Part shown: one piece after another, positions 16,138 through 58,892 of the stretch | Layout: every line of letters starts with the position of its first letter | Position numbering within the stretch: position 1 is the first letter of the stretch | Assembly (NCBI RefSeq): GCF_016097555.1 | Contig: NC_054704.1 | Coordinates: 50,219,437 to 50,283,436 of the forward strand | Direction: 5' to 3' | DNA: 64,000 bases | Source: Gigantopelta aegis | Taxonomy: Eukaryota; Mollusca; Gastropoda; Neomphalida; Peltospiridae | Translations under genes and position numbers: made by a program | Notes under the pieces: generated by a model | Database searches by the model: none | What the model was told of the DNA's origin: nothing | What the model saw: only the letters and a program-made list of their open reading frames with translations

Positions 16138-17455
16138 TACACTTCAAAAAAAAAGAAACTTGAATGGTGATGCAAAAAATGCTATAAAACACAATTGTCA
16201 TAGTCAATGTTTGTACTGAAATGCAAAAGCGCAATCCTCAGAGAAGCATGTGCATCATGAAGTTTTGTAACTTTGCATGCCAAACCCTCAGTGGGGCATA
16301 AAAGGCCACATCAGCAGTGATTCAAACAGACCACATAACGACACTGTAGGTAATGCAATAATGCCAAGATTGACGTCTGCTCAACGCAATAATACCATTG
16401 GGAGGTTGCAAGCAGGGGCAACTCAACAAGCTGTGGCCAGGCTCTTTGGTGTCTCCAGATAGACCATCTCTGCTTTATGTGCATGGTACATCTCTCAAAT
16501 GACAGGCCAAGGTGAGTACATCCGGGTGTGTCATCTTCGAAATCGAACCAAAACAGCAATAACCACAGCGACACAAATCCTTGGACTACGCAGAATTTCT
16601 GACCAGACAGTTCATAATCGGCTGAGGGAGGCAGGAATTTTCCCTAGAAGACCAGTGCGACATAACGTTTTGACCCCACATTACTTAGCAGAGTGGTGCC
16701 AGCAGAGGGTGAGATGGACATGTGCCAGGTGGAGGACTGTTTTGTTCTCGGATGAGTTTCGTTTTCTCCTGTCACATGCTGATGAATGCACACGTGTCTA
16801 TAGACGTCGAGGGGAACATTATATTCCAAACTGCATGCAACAAGTTGACAGTTTTGGTGGTGGTAGTGTCATGGTGTGGAAAGGAATCCATCATGGTGGT
16901 ATGACAGCTCTTGTGCATATGGCAGGTGCACTGAAGGGCATTAGATGTCAAGATCCTGCAGCATCACGTCATTCCGCAAATGAACATCAATGGTGGAATG
17001 TTTCAGCATGACAATGCCAGACCACATGTTGCATGTGTTAGTTAGGAGTTTCTGCAGCGCCACAACATCCAGACATTACTTTGGCCTGCCCGTTCTATGG
17101 GATGCACTGGATCAGTGTGTGTGCTGGAGGAATCCACCACCCCAGACTCTTCCGCAACTTCTTACAGCACTGCAGCATGAGTGGCAGAACATTCCACAAC
17201 GTGTTTCGATTGCTTCCATGCGTCGCCGTTGTAAAGGACTCGTGCTGGTCATAACCGATACTGACATTTTGCCCACCTCTATGTCACACACATGCCTGTG
17301 TACATGTTTCAGGTGGATTCCCAGATATACTATTTTGGACATGTACAGAGTAATCCCCTTCCCATGGCGTCTTGATCTTTGGTTGCTTGTATCATGTCTA
17401 CCAGGTGTTTTTTTTTAATCTTGAAATTCAATGTTTCTTTTTTTTTGAAGAGTAT
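16138..17455 (+). mobile_element. Tc1-like DNA transposon (decayed)
   Basis: About 1.3 kb with roughly 25-bp terminal inverted repeats (CACTTCAAAAAAAAAGAAAC at the left, its complement GTTTCTTTTTTTTTGAAG at the right) flanked by TA on both sides. It contains the transposase relic 16361-17260. This is the size and target preference expected for Tc1/mariner elements. Confidence 0.9.
16361..17260 (+). pseudogene. Tc1-like transposase pseudogene
   Basis: Begins MPRLTSAQRNNTIGRLQAGA with an N-terminal helix-turn-helix (QAVARLFGVSR). An in-frame stop follows at 16460-16462. The frame then continues with YIRVCHLRNRTKT, LRRISDQTVHNRLREAGI and the first catalytic Asp in VLFSDEFRF (about 16740). GGGSVMVWKGI follows near 16860. 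Frame is lost around 16940-16990. The second Asp region, FQHDNARPHVAC, is visible near 17000-17035, and a C-terminal SMRRRC near 17218. The proline-rich block that usually carries the third acidic residue is degraded, so the copy cannot make active enzyme. Confidence 0.92.
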
Positions 17456-20846: not shown

Positions 20847-23800
20847 TTAGAGTGTCTTCACCGTAACTTCGATCTCTGGATGATCTTGGCAGTGACTGAG
20901 AAAGTTTTCTATGAGTAAGAACTTCTTGCCACACACCGTGCACGATATGCCTTCCTGCTCATCGTTCAGCTGTAACGTCTGGCAAACGGAGACATCGTTT
21001 TCACTGTTGTGGCCCGTTTCGTACTGGATGACCGCCTGCATGGTGTCGGCCGCTACCAAAGCTTCCAGATTGACTGGGTTCTGCAGCTGTACTTGTCCCA
21101 AGACATGAATCTGTGGAACATCGCTGCCAGACACCGGAGGGGTTTTGAAGTGTTCTGCTAGTTCCCCCGTACTGTTAAGACCTTCGGGCTCTTCGAGCTT
21201 CACTACAGCGTGGCTGCTGGTGTGATTTTCCAAATCGATCGCACTCTCGAAACCAATGTCGCAAAACGAGCACACGTATTCTGTACCTTCGTGGACTAGA
21301 GCATGGCTGTCATAGTCACCTCTGTTTGTGAAGAGCTTTCCACACTTGGGACACTTGTACATGAGGACAGTGGTCGACAGGACGGATCCGTCGTCGACGT
21401 GGCACTGCATGTGTTCCTTCGCACTCTCTTCACTGGGGAAGGTCAAGTCGCAGACGACACACTCCAACGGCTTGTCGTGACAACGCTCATGCGCACGCAA
21501 CTCCTGCAAGGTTGCGAACAGCTTGTCACACCTGCCACAGTTCAACGGAACCTTCTGGTTCGGATGGATGCTGCGATGGGTCACCAGCTCCTCTTGCGAC
21601 TTGAATATCTTCTCGCAGTGCATGCATCTGAACGTGGTGTCTTCCGCGTGGCTCTTGTAATGGTCGTCCAGCTCGATCATGTGAAAGAAGCCCATGTTAC
21701 AGTGGACACAGACGAACACTTTAGAGCTGGTCCGGCCAAAGTGGAGCCGCATGTGTGAGCTGTACGTATCTTTAGTGAGCCACCAGCGTTCGCAGACTTC
21801 GCACTGGTAGGGACCCTCGTTGTGGTCCTTCACGTGCTTGCGCATCGCGCTCGCGGTCGGGTACACCTTGTGACAGGTAGGACACTGCTGTTCTCTCACG
21901 GTGCAGTGAACCGTGGACAGGTGGCGTTGTAACCGCGACGATGAAGCAAAGGCTTTGCTGCAGACACTACACACGTGAGATTTCGGTTTGATGCGCTTCT
22001 TATTCGTCGACGAACCTTGGTCGCTGTAGTGCCGCTTCATGTGTCGGTTCAGCTGGTATTTCGAGTAGAGTCTCCTGCCGCACATATCACAAACGAAAGG
22101 TTTCAGGCCAGCATGAGCCAACATGTGAATGTCCAGTGCAATGGCTGTGGTGTAGACCTTCTCGCAGAGTTTACATACAAACTCCTCGCGTTGTTTTGTG
22201 TGTACCTTCCGGTGCTGTTTCAGAAACACTATACTCCCAAAATGTTTACCGCAGAGGTCACAAACATGCTGCTTTTCTGAATGTCTCCGAAGTACATGAT
22301 TCTGAAACACAAAGGTCATAATTAGTTAACATGAAAGAAATCAGAAAGTGCAAATTATGTAAATGTTGATAAAATGAATACATTTTTAATCTTTAGAATG
22401 GTAATAGCATTCAATTTAGGTGGATTTCAGTAATATCAATTATCATAAAGTGGCGTCACATAAATAAATTGCAGGTACATGTTAACAAAAAATTTGCCCC
22501 CACCCCCTTCAATAATCTTCTGGTTAAATATGTATTTGCTGACAGGTTTCTTCATGTAGTCATTAATATGTGAACTTTTGTTATCAGGGAGCTAAAAATA
22601 GATCGATATAAAGGTATTTAACGTCAGACATAGGATTGTTGTTGAATTACAGCGGAAATCTTTTACTACCATTTGGTAGGCAGAACTTGTACAATACCGA
22701 CATAGATTGGTCTCGGACGGTTAGAGCTCACGATAACCGTCCAAATGCAGGTCCAGCTCTCTTACCATCAAGAGTACTCGAGCTACTATCCAAAACAATT
22801 TTTAACGGTTATTAAAAAGAGCAGTCAGAGGAGTAAGCCATTAAAACTTGCACTGGGTGGGTACCGAGGTGGAAACCAGTACAAGTTAAGGTCTATGCCG
22901 TAACCACTATGCTTGTAATTTCCACAACAAAGAGCACGTGTATGTATCTACCACTGGGTCTCTAAAACTGCTAATACAACATGGAGTGGGATCAACTCTT
23001 ACTCAGATGTAGTTAAAAGAATCATTCCCACTACCAGCTGCATTATAGCATTACCTTTCTTAGTACCAACTGGTTAGTACTAATCAAGAAATATTAAACT
23101 CTTTTTAAAAAAACAAAAAAACAAAACAAAAACTACCACCTCTAAATTCAACCCACAAATCATTCAATTAATTTTGGGTATAAATGAAAGGAATGCTGGT
23201 TTTAAAAGACCTCAGCACATTTTTAACAAGCTATTTAATTATTGGTCAAGTATAAGGCGACTGCAACATTTCAACATGAGTCTAGACAGTGAGCAAGTTG
23301 CTCATGGTCTACTACAGAATAATAGCAAAGGATACCGTTTTAGGGCTTCTAGATTTTTTATAAAAACCACTAGCCATGACATCAGTGATTAAATTTAGCC
23401 CTACTTTACTTTAAGTTTATACAATTTTACTAAATAATAGTAATAATCAGATATGTCACCTAAAGAAGGAGATAGAGCTTAAAAACACTAACATTGGGGG
23501 TTGGGTGGGGGCAGGATATTCATATTTACAAAACAGACCTTTGACTTTTTTCCTTTTGTTTTTTTCACTAGCCATCGAGCATGGCAATAGTAGTTATTTA
23601 CTAGCCCAACATTGAATATCACTAGCCATTGGAGTGGGGCTATCATAATCTAGAAGCCCTGGCTAATTCTTCCCTCTGTTGTTAGCGAATGATCAATCTT
23701 GTGTCTCTTTTAACAAAAATTAAACCCATCATTTAAAATACACATCAATTCTGTAACAGAAAAGTAATATCTCAAATTTATGAATATATAATATTTTCTT

Positions 23801-25228
23801 TTAGTCTGGACTACAGTCTGGAAAGAAGACTATAATACCACACAAATTGAATAAAAAGATCTATAGTAATAAATTCTAGAGATTAGCATGAACCAGAGTT
23901 CTGACGAGATATTTTATTATAAGCATAAGCCCTTGATATCAGCGTGGAAATACCTTAAGACCTGATCGTTCAGTAAAGGCTCTGGGACACTGGTTGCACT
24001 GGAAAGGTCGTGTTCCTGTATGGGTCAGCAGGTGGCGGTTTAAATTAGCCAAGCAGCGCAGCACTTTCCCACAAGATTCACATTTAAATGTTCTTTTTTG
24101 TCTCTTTCTTCTAGATAAGCCTTTTGACAACTTATCCGTGGCACCTTTCTTGTGTGTCCCCACTTCGTTATTCCCATCGTCTTTCTTTGCGGGGGACGGT
24201 TCTTGAAGAGACATCTTATGGACCTGTCGAAGATGTGTCACATAGCTGGCCTTCCATCGGAAACGACTGCCACATTCCTCACACTGATGTGGCTTTTCCT
24301 TCGTGTGCATCCGATTGTGTCGCATAAAGTCACCGACATCACGGAACTTTTTTGAGCAAAATTTACAAGTGCGAACTCTTTTGGGGGAATCGACAGGCAA
24401 GGGGCTAAGTCGGTCAGTACATTTACAGTCAGTCTCATTACAAACATTACAGCACCGGTCTTCAGAATCGTGGAGATCAAGGGTTTTACTCTGTTCTGAC
24501 GGGGACATTTCTTCATCTGAAGTACGTTCACTTGGTTCTAAAATCGCATTAGATGAGACGACACCTTTTTTACCACTGCATCGGTCAACTGTTGACTGAT
24601 CTGTAATACTGTGTGCCTCATCATCAATTGCATCTACTTCTTTTGTCCGACGAGTTGGAGATTTGTGTTTACTCACATCTTTAGACTTCCTGCCACTCTT
24701 GCTTTTAGCACTGGAAGAAAACGACAATTTTTTCTTAAGTGCCAATCGTTTACTTGTTCGAGGTGTCAATAGCGGTCCCTTTCCACTGACAGCCGATTCT
24801 TTTTCCAAGTTGTTTTGAACCTCTTTGGACGTGCTATCGTCAGTGTTAACTTTGGGAACATAAACGTGTTTATCTTCAACAGAAGTCTCATTTCCAGCAA
24901 CACCACCACTGTCGGTATCACAGTCCTGCGAGTCATCACTTATCCCAGAACTCAAATATCTACTTGTTTCGCAACTGTCGTCATGCAACATGTTGGTGTG
25001 ATCTTCCCGTAGGTCAAGTCTTACATCAAACACTGGCAATGCTTCCAGACAGGTGCCCTCCGTCTGTGTGCTGGCTTCTGTTCGTGGACACAGAAACAGA
25101 AGCATAATTCTGTCCAGCTCGCTCATGTTCAGCATGGTCTGAGTGGAGACCTCCTTGCAGCCGTGATTCACAGATTTACCATCAGCTCCCTTCCCAGAAG
25201 CCGATGAACCCCTGGTGGTCATCTTCAT
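20847..25228 (-). CDS. C2H2 zinc-finger protein, about 909 residues, 17 fingers
   Basis: Two coding exons on the minus strand, 25228-23954 (425 codons) and 22301-20847 (484 codons plus stop), joined in phase 0 by a GT-AG intron (donor AAG|GTATTT, acceptor TTTCAG|AAT). The ATG at 25228 has an in-frame TGA 9 bases upstream. Residues 1-285 are acidic and Ser-rich with basic patches and an isolated Cys cluster (CCNVCNETDCKC). Fingers start near residue 288. Three lie in exon 1, one is split by the intron (FQCNQCPRAF..SGLK|NHVLRRH), and 13 follow in exon 2, nearly all C-x2-C-x12-H-x3/4-H. A basic stretch SRRKRQKR near 370 looks like a nuclear localisation signal. Few canonical TGEKP linkers are present. 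No KRAB, SCAN or ZAD domain is visible. Probably a nuclear DNA-binding regulator; I do not recognise a one-to-one orthologue. Exon 2 is more GC-rich than its surroundings. Confidence 0.93.
22622..22925 (-). repeat. Probable SINE of another family in the zinc-finger gene intron
   Basis: On the minus strand, a tRNA-like start (TAGTGGTTACGGCATAGACC, then GGTTTCCACCTCGGTACC as B box) runs to a CGTTAAATACCTTTATATCG tail. No second copy in the window. Confidence 0.55.
23341..23664. mobile_element. hAT-like MITE, copy 2
   Basis: Same element as 6641-6999: AGGGCTTCTAGATTTT at the left, ATAATCTAGAAGCCCTGG at the right, with shared AATAATCAGATATGTCAC and TTATTTACTAGCCCAACA inside. It lies in the intron of the zinc-finger gene. 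Confidence 0.8.
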
Positions 25229-25281
25229 CTTTGATCAATCATTAACACAGCAACAAACTGCAACAAGAAAATAACACTTTA

Positions 25282-36954: not shown

Positions 36955-37533
36955 TCAATCCATATAAATTCCATACGCCGTAGCGGTACAGAAGATGGTT
37001 TTGTTCTGGTAGGAGTACGTTGCATAGCTGTCGAACTTGGGCTCCCATGCACACCGACTCGTTACCATGACTCCCTGGTCCCTCTTCTCCCCGAGGATGA
37101 CTGTCACTATGATCTTGTACCTGTCCATACAGAGCTGCTTCGTCCGTTCCTTGATTTCATCCGTCAGGACCTGGCTCATCGTGGGCGCCATCTTGGCATT
37201 GTACTGGAACTCTTCGAGTCGTTCGTCCAGGGTGCACTTGAGAATATTGCGAACCGTGTGAGATTGAAACTTGGCGCTCGGTTCCATACGATAGGTAGGC
37301 TCGTAATTGATGGCCGGCTGGAAGGGCGATGTTTCGCGCTTGTCGGACTTTCCTAATTTCTTGGACGCTTTCTTAGTGGAAAGTATATTGCCCATTTGGA
37401 AGACGCTGCTTCTTCTGGAGTCCGCCACAGGGAACAGACTCTTTCTTCTGTCGTCTGGTGCTAGCGACATTGGATTCAGACCGACAGGAGATGGCGCATC
37501 CACAGACAGCATCAGAACCTTTTTGGTCGCCAT
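36955..37533 (-). CDS. Tctex1-type dynein light chain, paralogue 1 (192 aa)
   Basis: Single-exon frame, ATG at 37533, stop at 36957-36955. Residues about 77-192 form a Tctex1 domain: YEPTYRMEP, a helix region LDERLEEFQYN, LTDEIKERTKQL, DRYKIIVTVILGE, then the strands VMVTSRCAWEPKFDSYATYS and a final TATAYGIYMD. It is closest to the Tctex1-domain-containing group (DYNLT4/DYNLT5-like) as I remember it. Such proteins are light chains of cytoplasmic or axonemal dynein and link to the intermediate chain. The N-terminal 76 residues are Ser- and Lys/Arg-rich with RRKS (Ser32) and RRSS (Ser43). It lies head-to-head with paralogue 2, 4.4 kb away. No clear AATAAA was found close downstream. Confidence 0.93.
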   Translation of the reverse strand: MATKKVLMLSVDAPSPVGLNPMSLAPDDRRKSLFPVADSRRSSVFQMGNILSTKKASKKLGKSDKRETSPFQPAINYEPTYRMEPSAKFQSHTVRNILKCTLDERLEEFQYNAKMAPTMSQVLTDEIKERTKQLCMDRYKIIVTVILGEKRDQGVMVTSRCAWEPKFDSYATYSYQNKTIFCTATAYGIYMD

Positions 37534-38130
37534 TGTGGTCTTGTCACGACAGAATGATGTTCGAAAACTAACACACGTGATATGTTTTAAAACAGCTTAC
37601 TAATTACAGTGTCCACAAGCTGGAAAAGTAAATGTCATCTTCAAAACATGTTCTACGACAAACAACCACTTGGTGAAACAGTTATATATTTTTATAGAAA
37701 ATATGCAAAAATTGATGGCTTGGCACTTCAGCAGATACAAGAATGACTGGACACTCCAACAAAGATGGTTATAACTGGACACTCCAACAGATGGCTTAAA
37801 CACTCAAAAGGGTGCAGGAATCAAACGGAAAACATTTTCAAATTCGGCAGTTAACCTGTCTCTTGCGGAGATTTGTTGAGTTAAATGTATTGCATTATAA
37901 TGAACACAGTATTCCATGCAGTTGCGAATGACATAAGTGCGGTGACCCGTCTTACCCCAGTATTTAATGCGGTCCACGTTGCTCGCCGTCACAAAAAGAA
38001 TGGTCATTATAGTTGAGGCGATTATGAGTTCATAAACCTTCACCAAAATATGGTATTAGATTCCAACCCAGTTGAATCGTTCAACGTTAGTTTGTTCTCT
38101 CACCCGAATTTGCGTGAACTCTTGATCTTC
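37534..38130. other. 5' flank of Tctex1 paralogue 1
   Basis: Expected promoter and 5' UTR side of the gene ending at 37533. It holds two copies of TGGACACTCCAACA (about 37748 and 37777). I find no convincing RFX X-box or TATA element. Confidence 0.4.
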
Positions 38131-41154: not shown

Positions 41155-41890
41155 GTCACATCTCTCTTTTTTTCTCACCACCTTTTATATTTGCTTGTCG
41201 CAAAAGAAATTATGGGTGCTATTTCCCAGTGAGGGTGTCCCCAATAAAATCCTGGTTCCGCTATGGAACAGCAGTGTCATGAGAGAAAATCCAAAATCTA
41301 TTAGCCAGCAGAGATGGACGACAGTGCACGCAGACTGCATCTTTATTCCAATTCCAACCCATACACAAGATAACAAGTCCCACCGATTCGTTCGTTTACT
41401 TGTTAGTATTTCCTTCAAAGAAAGCTGAGCTATGATGGATTCTAGATGATTAAGATATAAATAAAATATTAGTTATGAAGAGTAAATTAAAACAGTTGCA
41501 TATTGGGTTTTTTGATATCACTAACCTTAATGAACTTGGTCGTGGCGGGGATCGATCAGCGGCGATTGAGATAAGCGGTTTTTACGGAACATTTCACTGA
41601 GTCGATCTGATCATTGCTGTTTTACGGCTTTTAAACTAATCGCCTTTGTATGATTATTATCATTACAAGGTCATGGCATTTCAAGCAGACCATGGGCCCG
41701 CACTTAAACCAGACACCTGCGTCGAAACTGGCCAGAGAATGTGGTGTAAAATTTGGCACCGCTCCACGGTAGTCCTATCCTATGGCAGTATTGGTAAATG
41801 GTATTAGCGCCGTGACCAGCGTAGTTAATCAATCTTGATATATTAGTAAAAGTAGAAAAAATAACAATCAACTGCTTGGAGACAAATTCC
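41155..41890. other. 5' flank of Tctex1 paralogue 2
   Basis: Likely promoter side of the gene starting at 41903. I see no convincing TATA box or X-box, and the transcription start cannot be placed. Confidence 0.4.
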
Positions 41891-41902
41891 CTTGTGAGAA
41901 CA

Positions 41903-42493
41903 ATGGCGGGAAAGGAACCATTAGTGAGTGAGGCTGTCGGCCGCGTTTTGCTCACAGAAGTACCAGAAAAGGGCGAACTTCCCGAAAAAAGGAAAATGAG
42001 TGTGTTTCCAACAGCACATAAACGGCCGAGTATCGCGGCGTCGTTTTTGGGCGTTTTGGCCACGAGACGACTCTCGATGATGAAAAGGATGATGCCGAGG
42101 ATACAGGACTTGAGAAAAGAGAGCACGGGGATCCAGGTACACTACGAGCCGACGTACAGGCTGGAGCCCAAGGTGACATTCAGCGCCGCGAAGGCGGAGA
42201 GGATCCTCAAGGACGTCGTGGACGAGCGACTGGAAGGGCTGATATACAACGCCAAGGCGACGCCGTCACTCATACGCTATCTGTGTGAGGAGATCAAGGA
42301 TCGCGTGAAGGACTTGCACTACGATCGGTACAAGATCGTGGTGAACGTGACTATCAGCCAGAACACTGGCCAGTGCATCTTGGCCACAAGCAGGTGTGCG
42401 TGGGAGCCCAAGTACGACACCTTCGCCAGTTACTCATACAGCAACAAGGGCATCATGTGCTTCGCATCCGTGTATGGCGTCTACACTGACTGA
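41903..42493 (+). CDS. Tctex1-type dynein light chain, paralogue 2 (196 aa)
   Basis: Single-exon frame; the first ATG, at 41903 (ACAATGGCG), is a reasonable initiation context, and the stop TGA ends at 42493. Residues about 81-196 are the Tctex1 domain: YEPTYRLEP, VVDERLEGLIYN, LCEEIKDRVKDL, DRYKIVVNVTIS, ATSRCAWEPKYDTFASYS, ending ASVYGVYTD. The basic N-terminal region carries KRKMS (Ser33), KRPS (Ser43) and RRLS (Ser58). Codons in the domain are strongly G/C-ending compared with paralogues 1 and 3. It is transcribed divergently from paralogue 1. A 49-bp minisatellite starts directly after the stop codon. Function inferred from the family: dynein light chain, probably ciliary or flagellar. 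Confidence 0.94.
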   Translation: MAGKEPLVSEAVGRVLLTEVPEKGELPEKRKMSVFPTAHKRPSIAASFLGVLATRRLSMMKRMMPRIQDLRKESTGIQVHYEPTYRLEPKVTFSAAKAERILKDVVDERLEGLIYNAKATPSLIRYLCEEIKDRVKDLHYDRYKIVVNVTISQNTGQCILATSRCAWEPKYDTFASYSYSNKGIMCFASVYGVYTD

Positions 42494-42495
42494 AA

Positions 42496-43555
42496 ACCTA
42501 GCAGCAAAGGAATCCCGTTCTTTACTCAATTCTAATTATCTTAAACCTAGCAGCAAAGAAATCTTGTTCTTTACTCCATTCTAATGACCTTAAACCTAGC
42601 AGCAAAGGAATCGTGTTCTTTACTCCATTCTAACGACCTTAAATCTAGCAGCAAAGGAATCCCGTTCTTTACTCCATTCTAACGACCTTAAATCTAGCAG
42701 CAAAGGAATCCCGTTCTTTACTCCATTCTAACGACCTTAAACCTAGCAGCAAAGGAATCTCGTTCTTTACTCCATTTTAACGACCTTAAACCTAGCAGCA
42801 AAGGAATCCTGTTCTTTACTCCATTCTGACGACCTTAAACCTAGCAGCAAAGGAATCCTGTTCTTTACTCCATTCTAATTACCTTAAACCTAGCAGCAAA
42901 GGAATCCTGTTTTTTACTCCATTCTAACGACCTTAAACCTAGCAGCAAAGGAATCTTGTTTTTTACTCCATTCTAACGACTTTAAACCTAGCAGCAAAGG
43001 AATCTTGTTCTTTACTCCATTCTAACGACTTTAAACCATGCAACAAAGGAATCTTGTTTTTTACTCCATTCTAACGACTTTAAACCTAGCAGCAAAGGAA
43101 TCTTGTTTTTTTACTCCATTCTAACGACTTTAAACCATGCAACAAAGGAAGTTTGCTGTTTGCTCTCTTGTAAGGACTTTATACCAAGCTTCAAATGAAT
43201 TTTGTTGTTTACTCTCTTGTAAAAACTTTAAATCATGCAACACAGGACTTTTGTCGTTTGCTCTCTTGTAAAAACTTTAAATCATGCAACATGGGACTTT
43301 TGTCGTTTGCTCTTTTCAGACGACTTTAAATCATGCAGCAAAGGAATTGTGTTCTGTGCTCTTTTTTAACGACTTTAAACCATGCAACGAAGGAATTTTG
43401 TTGTTTACTCTCTTGTAAAGACTTTAAATGATACAACATAGGACTTTTGTCGTTTGCTCTCTTCTAACGACTTTAAACCATGCAACGAAGGAATTTTGTT
43501 GTTTCCTCCATTCTAACGACTTTTAGCCATATAATAGGAATTTGTTCTTCTCTTC
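42496..43555. repeat. 49-bp minisatellite abutting the Tctex1 paralogue 2 stop codon
   Basis: About 21 units of CCTAGCAGCAAAGGAATCCC then GTTCTTTACTCCATTCTAAC and GACCTTAAA. The first dozen are nearly identical; later ones (from about 43030) drift to ATGCAACAAAGGAATTTTGT forms. It starts within 3 bases of the TGA, so it is likely transcribed as 3' UTR. Confidence 0.97.
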
Positions 43556-51888: not shown

Positions 51889-52560
51889 CTATTCCAGATA
51901 CACCCCGAAGACGGTAGCTGTGCAGAAGATGTGACCGTTTTTGAACGTGTACGTGGCAAAATCGTCTACCCTAGGGTCCCAGGTACAGCGGCTGGTGACC
52001 ATCATCCCTTGTTGCATGTTCTGTCCAATGTGCACCTCGCAGATGATTCTGTAGCGGTCGAAATTCATCAACTTCACCTTGTCCTTAATCTCGTCTGACA
52101 GAACTTTACTTAGATTAGCGCACAACTTGGACCTGTAGGTGAACTTCTCCAGCCTGTTGTCTAGAACATTTTGTATCGCATCCTGGACTCTTTCCGATTG
52201 GAACTTCCGGTGCGGTTCCATACGATAGGTGGGTTCCTTTTTCACTGGGATCGTAACTCCCGAAAATCTGGAGGAGCCCTTTCGGCCAAATAGTCGAGTG
52301 GTTAGTCGCCTCGCCAAGCGCTTGGAGGCAAGAAGTCCTATGAGTGATGGTCCTGGAAGACTGGTCCGCAATCCTCCCGCGGTCATAAAGGTACTGGGTC
52401 TTCTGGCACCGTCCATGAGGTTACTAGGTCTTCTAGCACCATCCGTAAGGTTACTAGGTCGCCTGGAACCGTCGGTCGGTGAAAGCAACCCTTTGGCTAT
52501 GGACTTTCGCCTGTTCTCCGCAGGTGGTGTCAGTCCTAAATTAGATTCTTTTCGACTCAT
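51889..52560 (-). CDS. Tctex1-type dynein light chain, paralogue 3 (223 aa)
   Basis: Single-exon frame, ATG at 52560, stop at 51891-51889. Residues about 108-223 are the Tctex1 domain: KEPTYRMEP, VLDNRLEKFTYRSKL, LSDEIKDKVKLM, DRYRIICEVHIGQN, MVTSRCTWDPRVDDFATYT, ending TATVFGVYLE. The N-terminal region is longer than in its paralogues and includes three 10-residue repeats (DGxRRPSNLx, residues 30-59), plus RRKS at Ser20, followed by a basic, hydrophobic stretch (residues about 67-96). The repeat gives R-R-P-S at Ser36, Ser46 and Ser56. Light chain of dynein by family; ciliary role inferred. The domain is as diverged from paralogues 1 and 2 as they are from each other, so the duplications are old. 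Confidence 0.93.
   Translation of the reverse strand: MSRKESNLGLTPPAENRRKSIAKGLLSPTDGSRRPSNLTDGARRPSNLMDGARRPSTFMTAGGLRTSLPGPSLIGLLASKRLARRLTTRLFGRKGSSRFSGVTIPVKKEPTYRMEPHRKFQSERVQDAIQNVLDNRLEKFTYRSKLCANLSKVLSDEIKDKVKLMNFDRYRIICEVHIGQNMQQGMMVTSRCTWDPRVDDFATYTFKNGHIFCTATVFGVYLE
52384..52471 (-). repeat. In-frame 30-bp repeat in Tctex1 paralogue 3
   Basis: Three successive 30-bp units (each encoding DGxRRPS followed by three residues) keep the reading frame, so copy number may vary without breaking the protein. On the plus strand each unit shows AGGTTACTAGGTC or AGGTACTGGGTC. Confidence 0.85.
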
Positions 52561-52569
52561 CCTGATCTT

Positions 52570-53204
52570 GTGTCCACTACTCGTGATACTGATGTATTGA
52601 TTTCAAATGACGGCTGTGAATATAAATGTGTAAGTCAGACTGGTGCGGTACATGTACATTGGATTTATGACCGCTACAGTGCAAGACAGATCAACCTTTC
52701 CATGTCTGATATCGAAGGGGAAAAGACCATCCAATCGAACTAACGAATAAAACAACCTGTATCGTCGTCCCGTTGCCAGAAAGAAAATAAACCACGTGAC
52801 ATGTTTTTGAATGTTGTCCATGAATTCTAACAATAGATCTGGTTTATGGCTTACATACGTCTTTACAATATAGTTGAATAATAGGACAAAGAAATATCTA
52901 TAAAAGAGAAATAGAAACGTACACCGGACACCCTTATTGTAAGTGCGGGAGATCTGTATAGGCATGCGTATCTGTTTATCAGGCTTGTCTATATATGTTA
53001 CATCTTCTATAGTCTGTGTATAATTAGACGGCGTACTCCATTCAGCGAATCTGAATTAAAAGTATACATAAAAGAACTATTAAATCTTATATACCGTCCT
53101 TTGAGAAATGACAGTTGCACGACTTAAGGTTTCGAACACATATTTTATATACCGCAGACTTTAAGTCGGAATATTTTTCCTATACAATACTTTATTTTTG
53201 TGTT

Positions 53205-54529: not shown

Positions 54530-55360
54530 GAGGGGGGGAAGAAGAATGGATTGGTGGTCATATTTATAGTAAACTTGTTTTGCATTTTATTAATAGCGTT
54601 ATGAATTACATTACATCGCCATTGTACTGTCAATTTTCGTCTATCTACGGCAGGGAAGATTTCATTAATATATCTGACGATTTCTAGTTTTGAAATTTAA
54701 TTTAAAATTCTTCCGTCTTGAAACACAAATTCCTGAACTCAAATTATAACTTGTTGGTTTTTTTTTTAAATATCGAATTAAGTGTATCTTCAATATCGAC
54801 GAAATCCAACAGAGTATGGTATGAGAAAAAAAACGTGGATTTATTTTTCTCTTTGTTGAAAGAAAATTGTGATTTATCTATCTGTTGAAATGAGTAACGC
54901 TGCTCAAAACTTGTTCATGCGTGATCATCCGTGACTGAACTCTAAGACGGGTATTTTATGGCGAAACATGCAGGTCTCAAGTCTTACGAACAAAACACTA
55001 TTCAAAACGAGGAAATTCTTTTCAGCTCTGTAGATCTATGTTCTTTTGTGGAGTGTTGTATGGATATAGCATAGCGCAAGTTTTGCACCTTCGTAATGTA
55101 TGTTCAGACAAAAGGTCAGGGGATTATGAATCAAACTGAATTAAATTATTCTTAACTGGGTAGAATGGAAATAGCTAAATCTATATTTTTATTTTTATTA
55201 TAATCCCATTTGGTTCATCATCAAAACATTTCAATTAAATATCACTTGAATGCGTATAGATGTAAAACCATGTGCAGGTTGAATGTATATATCTATATTA
55301 GATATGTACATTTGTGTAGTTGTTCATTTTCTGTTCGTGTTTTTAGCTTCCTATATGACG
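54530..55360. other. No recognisable gene
   Basis: AT-rich sequence left of the long-terminus element; nothing supported. Confidence 0.4.
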
Positions 55361-55362
55361 TA

Positions 55363-58300
55363 TAGTAGGGACGAAAGCAATACAAAAAACTGAGAGTTCG
55401 TTACCATGCTTGTGAAAGTTACTTATTTAACACATTCCTATAGATTTTGACCCAAGGAACACGAATCCGAAGATACCACAAAATATTTTCCCCAAATAAG
55501 GCCAGTTTCAATGACCTTGAAAGGTCATGAGAGGTCAAGTAGGGCAAAAACCTAAATCGGTAACGGATAGTCATAAAAAGGCAATGTTGGTGTCAAATGA
55601 AAGCTTTCATCAAACCAAAACACTTCTATTCCAAATAGTAAATTGACAGGGTCAACAATGTGACCTCCAGAGGTCAATAAAGAGATCAATAGGGTTTTTT
55701 TGGTAAAAATACAGACTCCAAACTATGATGTTGACCGTGTATAATGTCAAATGAAAGCTCTCATCAAACCATAGCACTCAATGCAAAACACTTTTATTCC
55801 AGGATGTATCTTGATAGGAACATGCTGAAGTGAACCCAACTTTCACATTCTGGATGCTCATCATGAAGTATCAGTAGTTAGTGCTGGTGTTCGTACGAGC
55901 TCACAGGCAGCGTAATTTTCGGCTATTCGTGGAGACCCTGAAGGCTCTGGTTGGGACTTTCTTTGCCATGGACCACCACAACTATGCTTGATGGCTTCCC
56001 GTCTTCATCGCTGATCTTGAGTCACTGCCATCCTCTGGTCTAGTAGAGTTTGAGGGTAATGGAAACTGGACCATCAGCCGCACTATGAACAGGTTCTCTG
56101 CCATCGCCATAGATCACACCCATGAACAGAACAACAAACTGGTGAAAGGGGTAAGTGGCATTATCGGAATAACAGAAGATCCTACATCACTGGCAAAATG
56201 GGTCCTGATCGGCCCAGCTCTAGCCCATCTGGTGGATGATTTCCAGGAAAATGACCATGACACAGATGAACTTCGTCCACATCATGAAGAGGGCAAATCC
56301 TCCCACTTGCGTTTCTTGAGGCATGTCCAGAATATGTCTGACTTCATTCTTCAAGTGTGAAATCCCTTCTAGGAGGAAGAAAAGGAATTGGTGTCACTAC
56401 ATGGGTGTGTGTCCTTGTCAGTATCATCATCTGAAGCTGTCCAACAAATTGACAAACTTGGACGATCTCAGTATGAAGATTATAACGAGACCGTATTGGA
56501 AAACCGAACACATAACCTTCAGACGCCAATCAAAAAGAACAAACTGATTTTTTTCAAACAGGTTAAACAACGCAAAACAGCAACCCAGACAAAAACTATC
56601 TCATTTCAAAGATCATACGTCGTTGTATGGTCATTTGTTTGTATCATTGCACACACGTCAAGGAAACCTAAGCCTCTTCTTTCAACATGCGTCTGTAATC
56701 CCTCCTTCTGTCATGAAGACAACAAATGACAAGGCTGCACTGTACCACTGCATCATCGAAGCAGATTCTGCAAAAGGACCAGGCACCTTAGAGCAAACGG
56801 CCGAGCTCCCTCCAACAGGCTACAATGCAATAATCATCGATGGTGGGCCCTCATTCACACGATGCCACCAAAACCATCATGCTCGACATTTGACGACTAT
56901 GTGGCTACTGTCTTCTGTCCTCGCCTCCACGTTGAACTCAAAGCCTGTGATCACCTTGATGTCATATGGGGCAGATATTTTCCCAAAAGAATCAAAGGTA
57001 GCACACGTAACAAGAGAGCAGATGGAGATGCAAAGATTCCCTAAGGCAAGAAAACCTGGGGAAAGTTTCTGGCAGATTCGTCAAACAAGGAAGAACTGTT
57101 TGAGTTTCTGTCCAGTGAGGCAATTAAAAACCAATATTCCGACAGCAATGATGTATACTTGACATCTGGTGCCAAGGTTGTACATATCGGGCCTGGTGAT
57201 GAAATGATAGAACCTTCGAACCACGAGGAAGCAGACACCAGCATAGTGGTACACATAATCGACGCACTTCTCATCAGGACTGGCGACACCGACGTATTCA
57301 TCATCCTCTTGGGTCAGTTCTGTCGTTTCCATTCCATAAATCCAAACCTAAACTTGTGGATTCCATTCGGTGGTGGAAAGCATCAGCAAATGCTTTACAT
57401 CAATCGACTCCATCAGAGCATTGGCCAAGAACGCTGCCCTGCATTGCCGATGTTCCATGCCATGTCAGGTTGTGATACTACGAGTGGACTGAAAATTTTG
57501 TGAAGATCTCACAGCACCCCTTCCAGGTTTTGTCAGGTCATGACTTCGCTTCCGTGGAGGAGATCGTGTGTCGACTCTACGACAACACATCGACTACGTC
57601 TGAGGTCAATGTTCTGAGAATTCCACTAACACAGGACGCATTAATGCTTCACCTTAGACGAGCTGTGCACCAGGCATCAATCTGGTACAGAAGTCATCAG
57701 CCAGTGCTCCCAGAAGAGGACCCATGTTCTTTCGGCTGGCAAGAATCCAACAACAACCTAACGCCCAGGTGGACCTCGCATGGCACGGCCACTGAAGTGT
57801 TCAAAATGACAGTAAAATGTGGTTGCCGTAAACCCTGTACCGCCCCCTGCTCTTGCAAAAAAGAACATCTTGACTGTACACCACTGTACAAATGTCCCTG
57901 CTTAAAGTGATCTAGAGGCCACATAGTTAACCACAAGACATTTAACCAGCAGCAAGTTGTTTTGAGGAGTGCTTTCATTTAACACCATAAGCGACCATCC
58001 TAAAGCCGCTGCTTGATGTTCTCGAACTTTTGACCTTGCATGACCTTTCATGACCTATAAGGGTCAAACGGTTGATAGCACTACTTATACTCTGAAGTGT
58101 AAGTGTTTTGTTTTGATGAGAGCTTTCATTTGACACCATACACGATCATTATAGTATCATCTTTTGGGGTATTGTTGTTTTTACCAAAAACAACCCTTAT
58201 TGACCTTTATTGACCCCTAGAAGCCACGTTGTTAACCCTATCAATTTACATCACTGAATAAAGTTCTTTGGTTTTGACAAGAGCTTTCATTTGACACCAA

Positions 58301-58518
58301 TATGACCTTTGTATGACAATCCATTACTGATATAGTTTTTGTTTTTTAACCCTATTTGACCTCTTATGACCTTTCAAGGTCACCAAAACTGACCTTATTC
58401 GGGGTCAAATTTTTGTGGCACCTTTAGATATTTGTTCCTTGGGTCAAGTCCTATGAGATCCCATTGAAAAAGTAACTTTCACAAGCATGGTAACGAACTG
58501 GTTGTTTCGATCCCACTA
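55363..58518. mobile_element. 3.2-kb element with about 450-bp inverted termini and a nuclease-like relic
   Basis: The left arm starts TAGTAGGGACGAAA; the right arm ends TTTCGATCCCACTA. Both then contain the complementary AGTTCGTTACCATGCTTGTG, AAAGTTAC, GACCCAAGGAAC, and GACCTTGAAAGGTCAT. The arms are roughly 55363-55815 and 58070-58518. Each arm repeats the motif GTGTCAAATGAAAGC(T/A)(C/T)T two or three times (GAAAGCTTTC palindrome), which may be protein binding sites. A short TA-like target duplication is possible but not certain. I do not recognise the class: it has no visible DDE transposase, reverse transcriptase or capsid gene. Confidence 0.85.
55900..57910 (+). pseudogene. Relic of an uncharacterised transposon-borne protein with PIN/FEN1-like motifs
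   Basis: Several open stretches in different frames, broken in about four places, resemble a large uncharacterised protein family that I remember as multi-copy in molluscan, cnidarian and fish genomes. Its hallmark NRFSAIAIDHTHEQNNKLVK and GVSGIIGITEDP lie at 56085-56190. Visible motifs: IIIDGG (Asp at about 56839), HEEADT (57222-57239), GDTDVFIILL (from 57285) and PMFHAMSGCDTTS (about 57450-57490). It ends in a Cys cluster CGCRKPCTAPCSCKK, then CPCLK (57817-57910). The spaced acidic motifs D, EEAD and DTD are like those of PIN/FEN1-type nucleases; that assignment is inference. Confidence 0.75.
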
Positions 58519-58534
58519 GTAATAATAGCACTTG

Positions 58535-58593
58535 TTGAACATATCTATCTATCTATCTATCTATCTAATATTGTCTGTCTGTCCGACTGTCTG

Positions 58594-58635
<42 letters not shown>

Positions 58636-58790
58636 AATCATTATATCTATCATTTATTATATCTACCTACCTACCTACCTACCTACCTACCTACCTACCT
58701 ACCTACCTACCTACCTACCTGCCTGCCTGTCTGCCTGTCTGTCGGTCTCTCTACCTATCTATCTATCTATCTATCTATATGTGTTTATCT
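58535..58790. repeat. (ATCT)n, (ACCT)n and (TGTC)n microsatellites
   Basis: Compound tetranucleotide tract beginning just after the right end of the 55363-58518 element. The 94-residue open frame across it is an artefact. Confidence 0.97.
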
Positions 58791-58855
58791 TTTCAAATTT
58801 GTTTTCTTTAAATTAATTTATTGATTACCTACACTTATTTATTTCAACTGACTTT

Positions 58856-58857
<2 letters not shown>

Positions 58858-58892
<35 letters not shown>
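58858..58892. repeat. T homopolymer, about 35 bases
   Basis: Uninterrupted T run. Confidence 0.97.

Follow-up and report, generated by a model that had tools for sequence, protein, structure and literature searches.

The element at positions 55363-58518 of the window (the whole 64-kb stretch of Gigantopelta aegis DNA that was analysed) is, with a probability of roughly three in four, a defective, internally deleted cut-and-paste DNA transposon of the AcademX lineage in the Academ superfamily, to which it is matched by published descriptions. The family has inverted ends and 3-bp target-site duplications, its ends are linked to one protein, two halves of that protein lie in a single open reading frame, and deletion derivatives occur. 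In this single genome, a 152-aa piece of the window copy's protein has 150 scored matches out of 857 candidates, and this abundant protein family, for which none of the libraries used has a name, thus gains a probable place in a named transposon lineage.

Ends, arms and dispersed copies

The window copy is a damaged element of 3.16 kb whose ends are exact to the base. It begins with TAGTAGGG... at 55363 and ends with ...CCCACTA at 58518, and the same GTA flanks it at 55360..55362 and 58519..58521. The left terminal inverted arm (terminus TAGTAGGGACGA) occupies 55363..55818 (+), with an approximate inner edge, and the right arm occupies 58056..58518 (-), its inner edge likewise approximate; related subterminal repeats reach inward on the right to 57957. 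The arms are about 450 bp long and imperfect. Positions 55395-55778 pair in inverted orientation with 58102-58499 over 401 columns at 77% identity (E 2e-79), or, as separate pieces, over 156 nt at 79%, 136 nt at 77% and 47 nt at 87%. The original prediction of a foldback element with inverted arms of about 450 bp around a broken gene holds, down to exact ends and matching flanks.

Five ATGAAAGCTTTCAT-like sites lie in the element, two in the left arm and three on the right side, at spacings of 151-161 bp. The left arm carries ATGAAAGCTTTCAT itself at 55597..55610, the sole perfect GAAAGCTTTC palindrome of the five, and ATGAAAGCTCTCAT at 55751..55764. The right side carries a degenerate AGGAGTGCTTTCAT at 57965..57978, inside a 42-nt repeat, followed by ATGAGAGCTTTCAT at 58116..58129 and ACAAGAGCTTTCAT at 58277..58290. 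The short motif is weak alone because the same scan (at most three mismatches) finds 16 further sites in the rest of the 64-kb window. The longer repeats around the sites, a 34-nt pair in the left arm and a 42-nt triple on the right, are better evidence, and the repeated arm motifs noticed in the original prediction stand in this longer form.

AGGTCA/TGACCT hexamers are enriched in the arms (55512-55677 and 58201-58395). The window copy has five in its left 460 bp and six in its right 460 bp, against an expectation of about 0.2 and a maximum of 3 in 1000 base shuffles, and nine other copies measured have 0-6 on the left and 4-7 on the right. One pair is arranged AGGTCA-NNNN-AGGTCA, and we take the hexamers to resemble nuclear-receptor half-sites. 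Just past the right end of the element lie a tetranucleotide array (58542-58778) and a poly-T run (58853-58892).

Searches of the host genome (1.149 Gb, 5216 contigs) return at least 25 matches for the left arm, the nine next-best of which are 85-93% identical, and at least 27 for the right arm. Among the matches listed, these fall into 13 elements, the window copy and L009-L020. They represent 12 independent insertions, because the shared flanks of L009 and L010 suggest a single locus that was duplicated. Nine of the 12 can be read at both ends, and all nine have a 3-bp duplication: GTA in the window copy, TAG in L009/L010, TAT in L012, CAA in L013, AAA in L014, TAA in L015, TTA in L016 and ATA in both L018 and L019. 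The TAG duplication was read by eye; the scripted end call was CAC/TAG, with the left end placed one TAG early. One end is unreadable in L011, L017 and L020. The long-armed DNA transposon that had been proposed is thereby confirmed, and its target duplication, which the proposal left to be defined, is 3 bp. The probability that a host pseudogene simply lies between inverted repeats that arose by chance is negligible: nothing was found in favour of this reading, and it is refuted by the target duplications and by 13 dispersed copies that share the same ends.

All 13 arm-bearing copies contain part of the transposon protein in tblastn searches with P0001, the 1485-aa protein of an intact relative, as the query. 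Arms and protein family therefore belong together, as had been supposed. Nine copies (the window copy, L009, L010, L013, L014, L016, L018, L019 and L020) hold the 3' part of the gene, beginning at P0001 aa ~622 to 1244, and in the other four (L011, L012, L015 and L017) the same arms enclose the 5' half, which starts at aa 3-72 and ends at aa 716-752. A full-length gene with window-type arms occurs in none of the 13. L014 appears long (5.5 kb) because of unrelated inserted DNA; its 233-aa ORF (L014:3661-4359), the ORF seen in this longest arm-bearing copy, is apparently unrelated to the transposon protein and is probably part of another inserted element. The simplest reading of the two complementary deletion classes is that they are internal-deletion derivatives multiplied in trans, which is suggested because several copies share one deletion. 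The window copy is not able to move itself and presumably was multiplied in this way. L042, an open 503-codon nuclease part, is the closest open relative of the window family; within the 8 kb examined around it there is no left arm, and the right side is represented by 133 nt.

A broken gene and its two-part relative

The intact relative, L041, lies in the same genome and is about 5.4 kb long; its single ORF, 1485 aa from the first ATG (P0001), joins a transposase-like half and a FEN1/XPG-like nuclease half in one protein. Its termini are TAGTCAGGTGGC.../...GCCACCTGACTA, its terminal inverted repeats extend over 305 nt at 77%, and its duplication is TAA. Judged from L041, the autonomous form measures about 5.4 kb, has imperfect arms several hundred bp long and encodes a single protein of about 1485 aa. 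L195 and L196 form one family with ends TAGT...ACTA and duplications TAT and AGT, and L198 has ends TAGAC...GTCTA and duplication TAA (all read by eye). L050 has inverted repeats of 245 nt at 94%, and its ends do not resolve to the TAG...CTA/3-bp pattern. A 3-bp duplication is thus found in 13 of the 14 elements examined (nine of the arm family, L041, L195, L196 and L198); the fourteenth is L050.

A 3-bp duplication and a right end of CCCACTA would also suit a CACTA/EnSpm (CMC) element, with its CACTA-like 3' end. CACTA elements start with CACTA and end with TAGTG, however, and the orientation here is reversed (TAGT...ACTA). The right ends of the related families are CTGACTA, CTTACTA and GTCTA, and P0001 has no match to a CMC transposase in Pfam. 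Membership in this group is extremely unlikely and was rejected on the termini.

The broken gene of the window copy is the 3' part of the transposon protein. It runs through 55836..57907 (+) and matches P0001 aa 752-1484 in two pieces (tblastn E 2e-122), so the relic exceeds the length first given for it. The gene as first described is sound for this 3' part and amounts to half of a gene, since the full relative encodes both halves. The end of the transposase-like half (55836..56360, +) is recognisable by FVRAHRQRNF, NYA*WLPV and DHTHEQNNKLVKG, the last with a candidate catalytic E. The FEN1-like half follows on the same strand with IIIDGG, its first acidic strand (56830..56847, frame 1), HEEADT, the E/D pair (57222..57239, frame 0), GDTDVFIILL, the D-x-D pair (57282..57311, frame 0), LPMFHAMSGCDTTS, the last acidic motif (57444..57485), and a C-terminal Cys cluster (57818..57907, frame 2). 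IIIDGG, HEEADT, GDTDVFIILL and the Cys cluster had all been noticed before, and in this order. In a 12-row alignment four residues of HEEADT (H, the second E, D and T) and the two aspartates of DTD are invariant.

Stops, frameshifts and small deletions have damaged the gene. The window copy is without the first two D candidates of the upstream half, and the helix region that lies 3' of the last acidic motif in relatives is deleted. The nuclease of this copy should be dead, because G replaces the second nuclease D (VIWGRY) and a deletion has removed the region after GCDTTS. A single-sequence AlphaFold model of the window ORF at 57045-57503 is unusable (pLDDT 42.5).

Seven acidic positions of the FEN1 type are kept in this transposon family. 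In P0001 they are D1086, D1129, E1218, D1220, D1244, D1246 and D1307. Across a 23-row alignment, E1218, D1220, D1244 and D1246 are acidic in every row, D1129 in 20 of 20 rows, D1307 in 96% of 23 and D1086 in 94% of 17. The catalytic acids of human FEN1 are D34, D86, E158, E160, D179, D181 and D233. The family resembles FEN1/XPG/RAD2 nucleases in the order and comparable spacing of its seven conserved acids, and differs from them in having no Pfam XPG_I match and in carrying a transposase-like half and a Cys cluster in the same protein. GxGK follows GCD in 17 of 21 family rows (a count that leaves out one further regex hit, in L192, at the wrong place) and resembles the FEN1 helix motif (GxGxK). 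L042 departs from the majority in having SKGK at this site, and the corresponding region is deleted in the window copy.

Comparison by hhalign of the family profile (23 rows, 16 after the HH-suite filter) with 54 FEN1 proteins yields a path that places six of the seven acid columns on FEN1 catalytic residues, five on their exact counterparts and E1218 shifted to the next acid. Such coincidences number at most three in 200 column shuffles, at most four, reached once, in 200 block shuffles, and zero with the reversed profile. The score of 20.6 is not significant: 11 of the 200 column shuffles reach it, the reversed profile scores 28.9, and comparisons of FEN1 with five unrelated archaeal families give 15.7-19.6. 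When the profile is rotated circularly, five or six coincidences appear in 43 of 78 cases (six in 21); these rotations are not counted as a null because they leave the column order largely intact. An earlier profile of 12 rows gave no useful hhalign alignment. The proposal that the acidic motifs occupy FEN1/XPG catalytic positions is upheld by seven acids in order, six of them on the path; the profile comparison agrees in that path and falls short in its score and in the missing Pfam XPG_I match. The conserved acids point to the C-terminal half as a putative FEN1/XPG-like metal nuclease.

Pfam XPG_I has no match in the nuclease half of P0001, and of the 12 places that it hits in the genome none is among the 150 transposon places. 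Searches of P0001 against Pfam and NCBIfam, and of P0001 and A1 against PDB sequences, gave no DDE, PIN or XPG match. A PDB hit to Ika8 (E 7e-8) was rejected as a sum of roughly 10-bit matches to a repetitive chain, and weak Pfam, PHROGs and NCBIfam hits were rejected as chance, being below curated cut-offs wherever these are shown and differing between members. Viral and bacterial/archaeal collections yielded 11 pattern-matching stretches, none confirmed as a relative.

The upstream half of P0001 has its own conserved acids: D462/D465 (DNLD, then FHGT), D633 (DQP) and D844/E848 (DQTHE). DNxD and DQ are present in all four covering alignment rows and in the four 5'-half copies, and D(Q/H/L)xxE is kept in every row that covers the site, with the variant DLITE in L055. 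The last motif of L050 lies outside its aligned piece but can be read in the element. Because neither Pfam nor NCBIfam has a match in this half, we infer its identity as a DDE-type transposase from the conservation of the acids and from the Academ literature. Matches to the upstream half are listed at 89 places in the host genome (86 scored of 1416 candidates). Among the matches listed, 57 of these 89 places are followed within 4 kb, on the same strand, by a match to the nuclease half, and no place has a nuclease-half match that is arranged in any other order or lies on the opposite strand.

These copies bear on the original prediction of a PIN-like rather than a DDE enzyme, by which the PIN/FEN1-like nuclease half alone would cut and move the element. 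The window copy does hold mainly the nuclease half, and no library used recognises the upstream half as DDE, but L041 and the four same-arm copies carry an upstream half with conserved acids (DNxD, DQ; DxxxE), and upstream halves precede nuclease halves at the 57 places just described. The prediction is probably wrong on this point, and movement by the nuclease alone is very unlikely. With the conserved D...D...E candidates in its 5' half, the family has the appearance of a DDE transposase plus a nuclease.

Place among named transposons and proposed mechanism

AcademX elements have duplications of 3 or 4 bp and AcademH elements of 9 or 10 bp, lengths that the available text relates to the encoded nuclease (AcademX) and helicase (AcademH) (PMC10045372). 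Academ is placed among the superfamilies with a DDD/E transposase in the accessible part of a second source (PMC9587614), and curated bivalve Academ elements have a mean length of 5565 bp according to an excerpt of a third (PMC10294476). The window family is assigned to AcademX because L041 fits the duplication length, the nuclease and the element length printed in these excerpts and has a candidate for the DDD/E transposase. Its 3-bp duplication falls within the 3-4 bp range (PMC10045372, available text), its length of about 5.4 kb is close to the bivalve mean (PMC10294476, excerpt), its nuclease half shares an ORF with the upstream half, as judged by conserved acids, and P0001 has a half with D..D..E candidates in the place expected for a DDD/E transposase. 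The window copy differs as a 3.16-kb deletion derivative, and the comparison is one of descriptions rather than sequences. Since a nuclease and 3-4-bp duplications are already in print for AcademX (PMC10045372, available text), the earlier description of the element as the least described system in the window was overstated.

Membership being drawn from descriptions, this is most probably a new family within the already named AcademX group. The AcademX nuclease is presumably of the XPG type; none of the papers searched contains both AcademX and XPG.

AcademH belongs to the same superfamily and likewise has an accessory enzyme beside a DDD/E transposase. It differs in its helicase and its 9-10-bp duplications, against 3 bp here (PMC10045372, available text), and Pfam and NCBIfam find no helicase family in P0001; AcademH was rejected on duplication length and domain content. 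KolobokD, KolobokE and KolobokP resemble the present family in that an accessory nuclease accompanies a DDD/E transposase, but the nuclease folds described there are others, namely DEDDh, lambda-exonuclease-like and His-Me finger (PMC9587614, accessible part).

A fusion of a DDE-type transposase with a FEN1-like nuclease might instead define a separate, unnamed superfamily not closely related to Academ. Academ was compared by description, and the TAG...CTA termini were matched to no published terminus, both of which leave room for such a lineage. It is unlikely, given that the 3-bp duplications, the nuclease, the DDE-type candidate half and the 5.4-kb length fit what the available excerpts print for AcademX and Academ.

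For an AcademX element of this kind, the N-terminal half would act as the DDE-type transposase: it would recognise the arm repeats as its putative binding sites, cut the ends and insert the element with a 3-bp stagger. The accessory enzyme would be the C-terminal half, a FEN1/XPG-like metal nuclease whose probable task is to trim the 5' strand or flap, either at the ends after excision or at the insertion gap. More tentatively, and with low odds, one polypeptide might combine two metal-nuclease sites, a DDE site of the RNase H type and a seven-acid site of the FEN1 type, that both cut DNA in transposition (for example, the DDE site the 3' strand and the FEN1-like site the 5' strand or flap) and so set the 3-bp stagger. 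An accessory-nuclease role in DNA transposition could be tested on the intact relative L041.

Other features of the window

Three ORFs of the Tctex-1 family, at 36955-37596 (-), 41825-42493 (+) and 51889-52602 (-), match Pfam at E 1e-28 to 4e-28, have an EPTYRMEP-like stretch in common and probably form a local gene cluster. Two C2H2 zinc-finger ORFs occupy 20847-22325 (-) and 23939-25234 (-). The stretch at 16463-17418 (+) contains a Tc3-type helix-turn-helix (Pfam E 1e-4, below the curated cut-off) and is probably a broken Tc1/mariner-like transposase. Two tandem arrays are present, one of 21 copies of a 49-bp unit at 42494-43523 and one of 17 copies of a 46-bp unit at 4-787.
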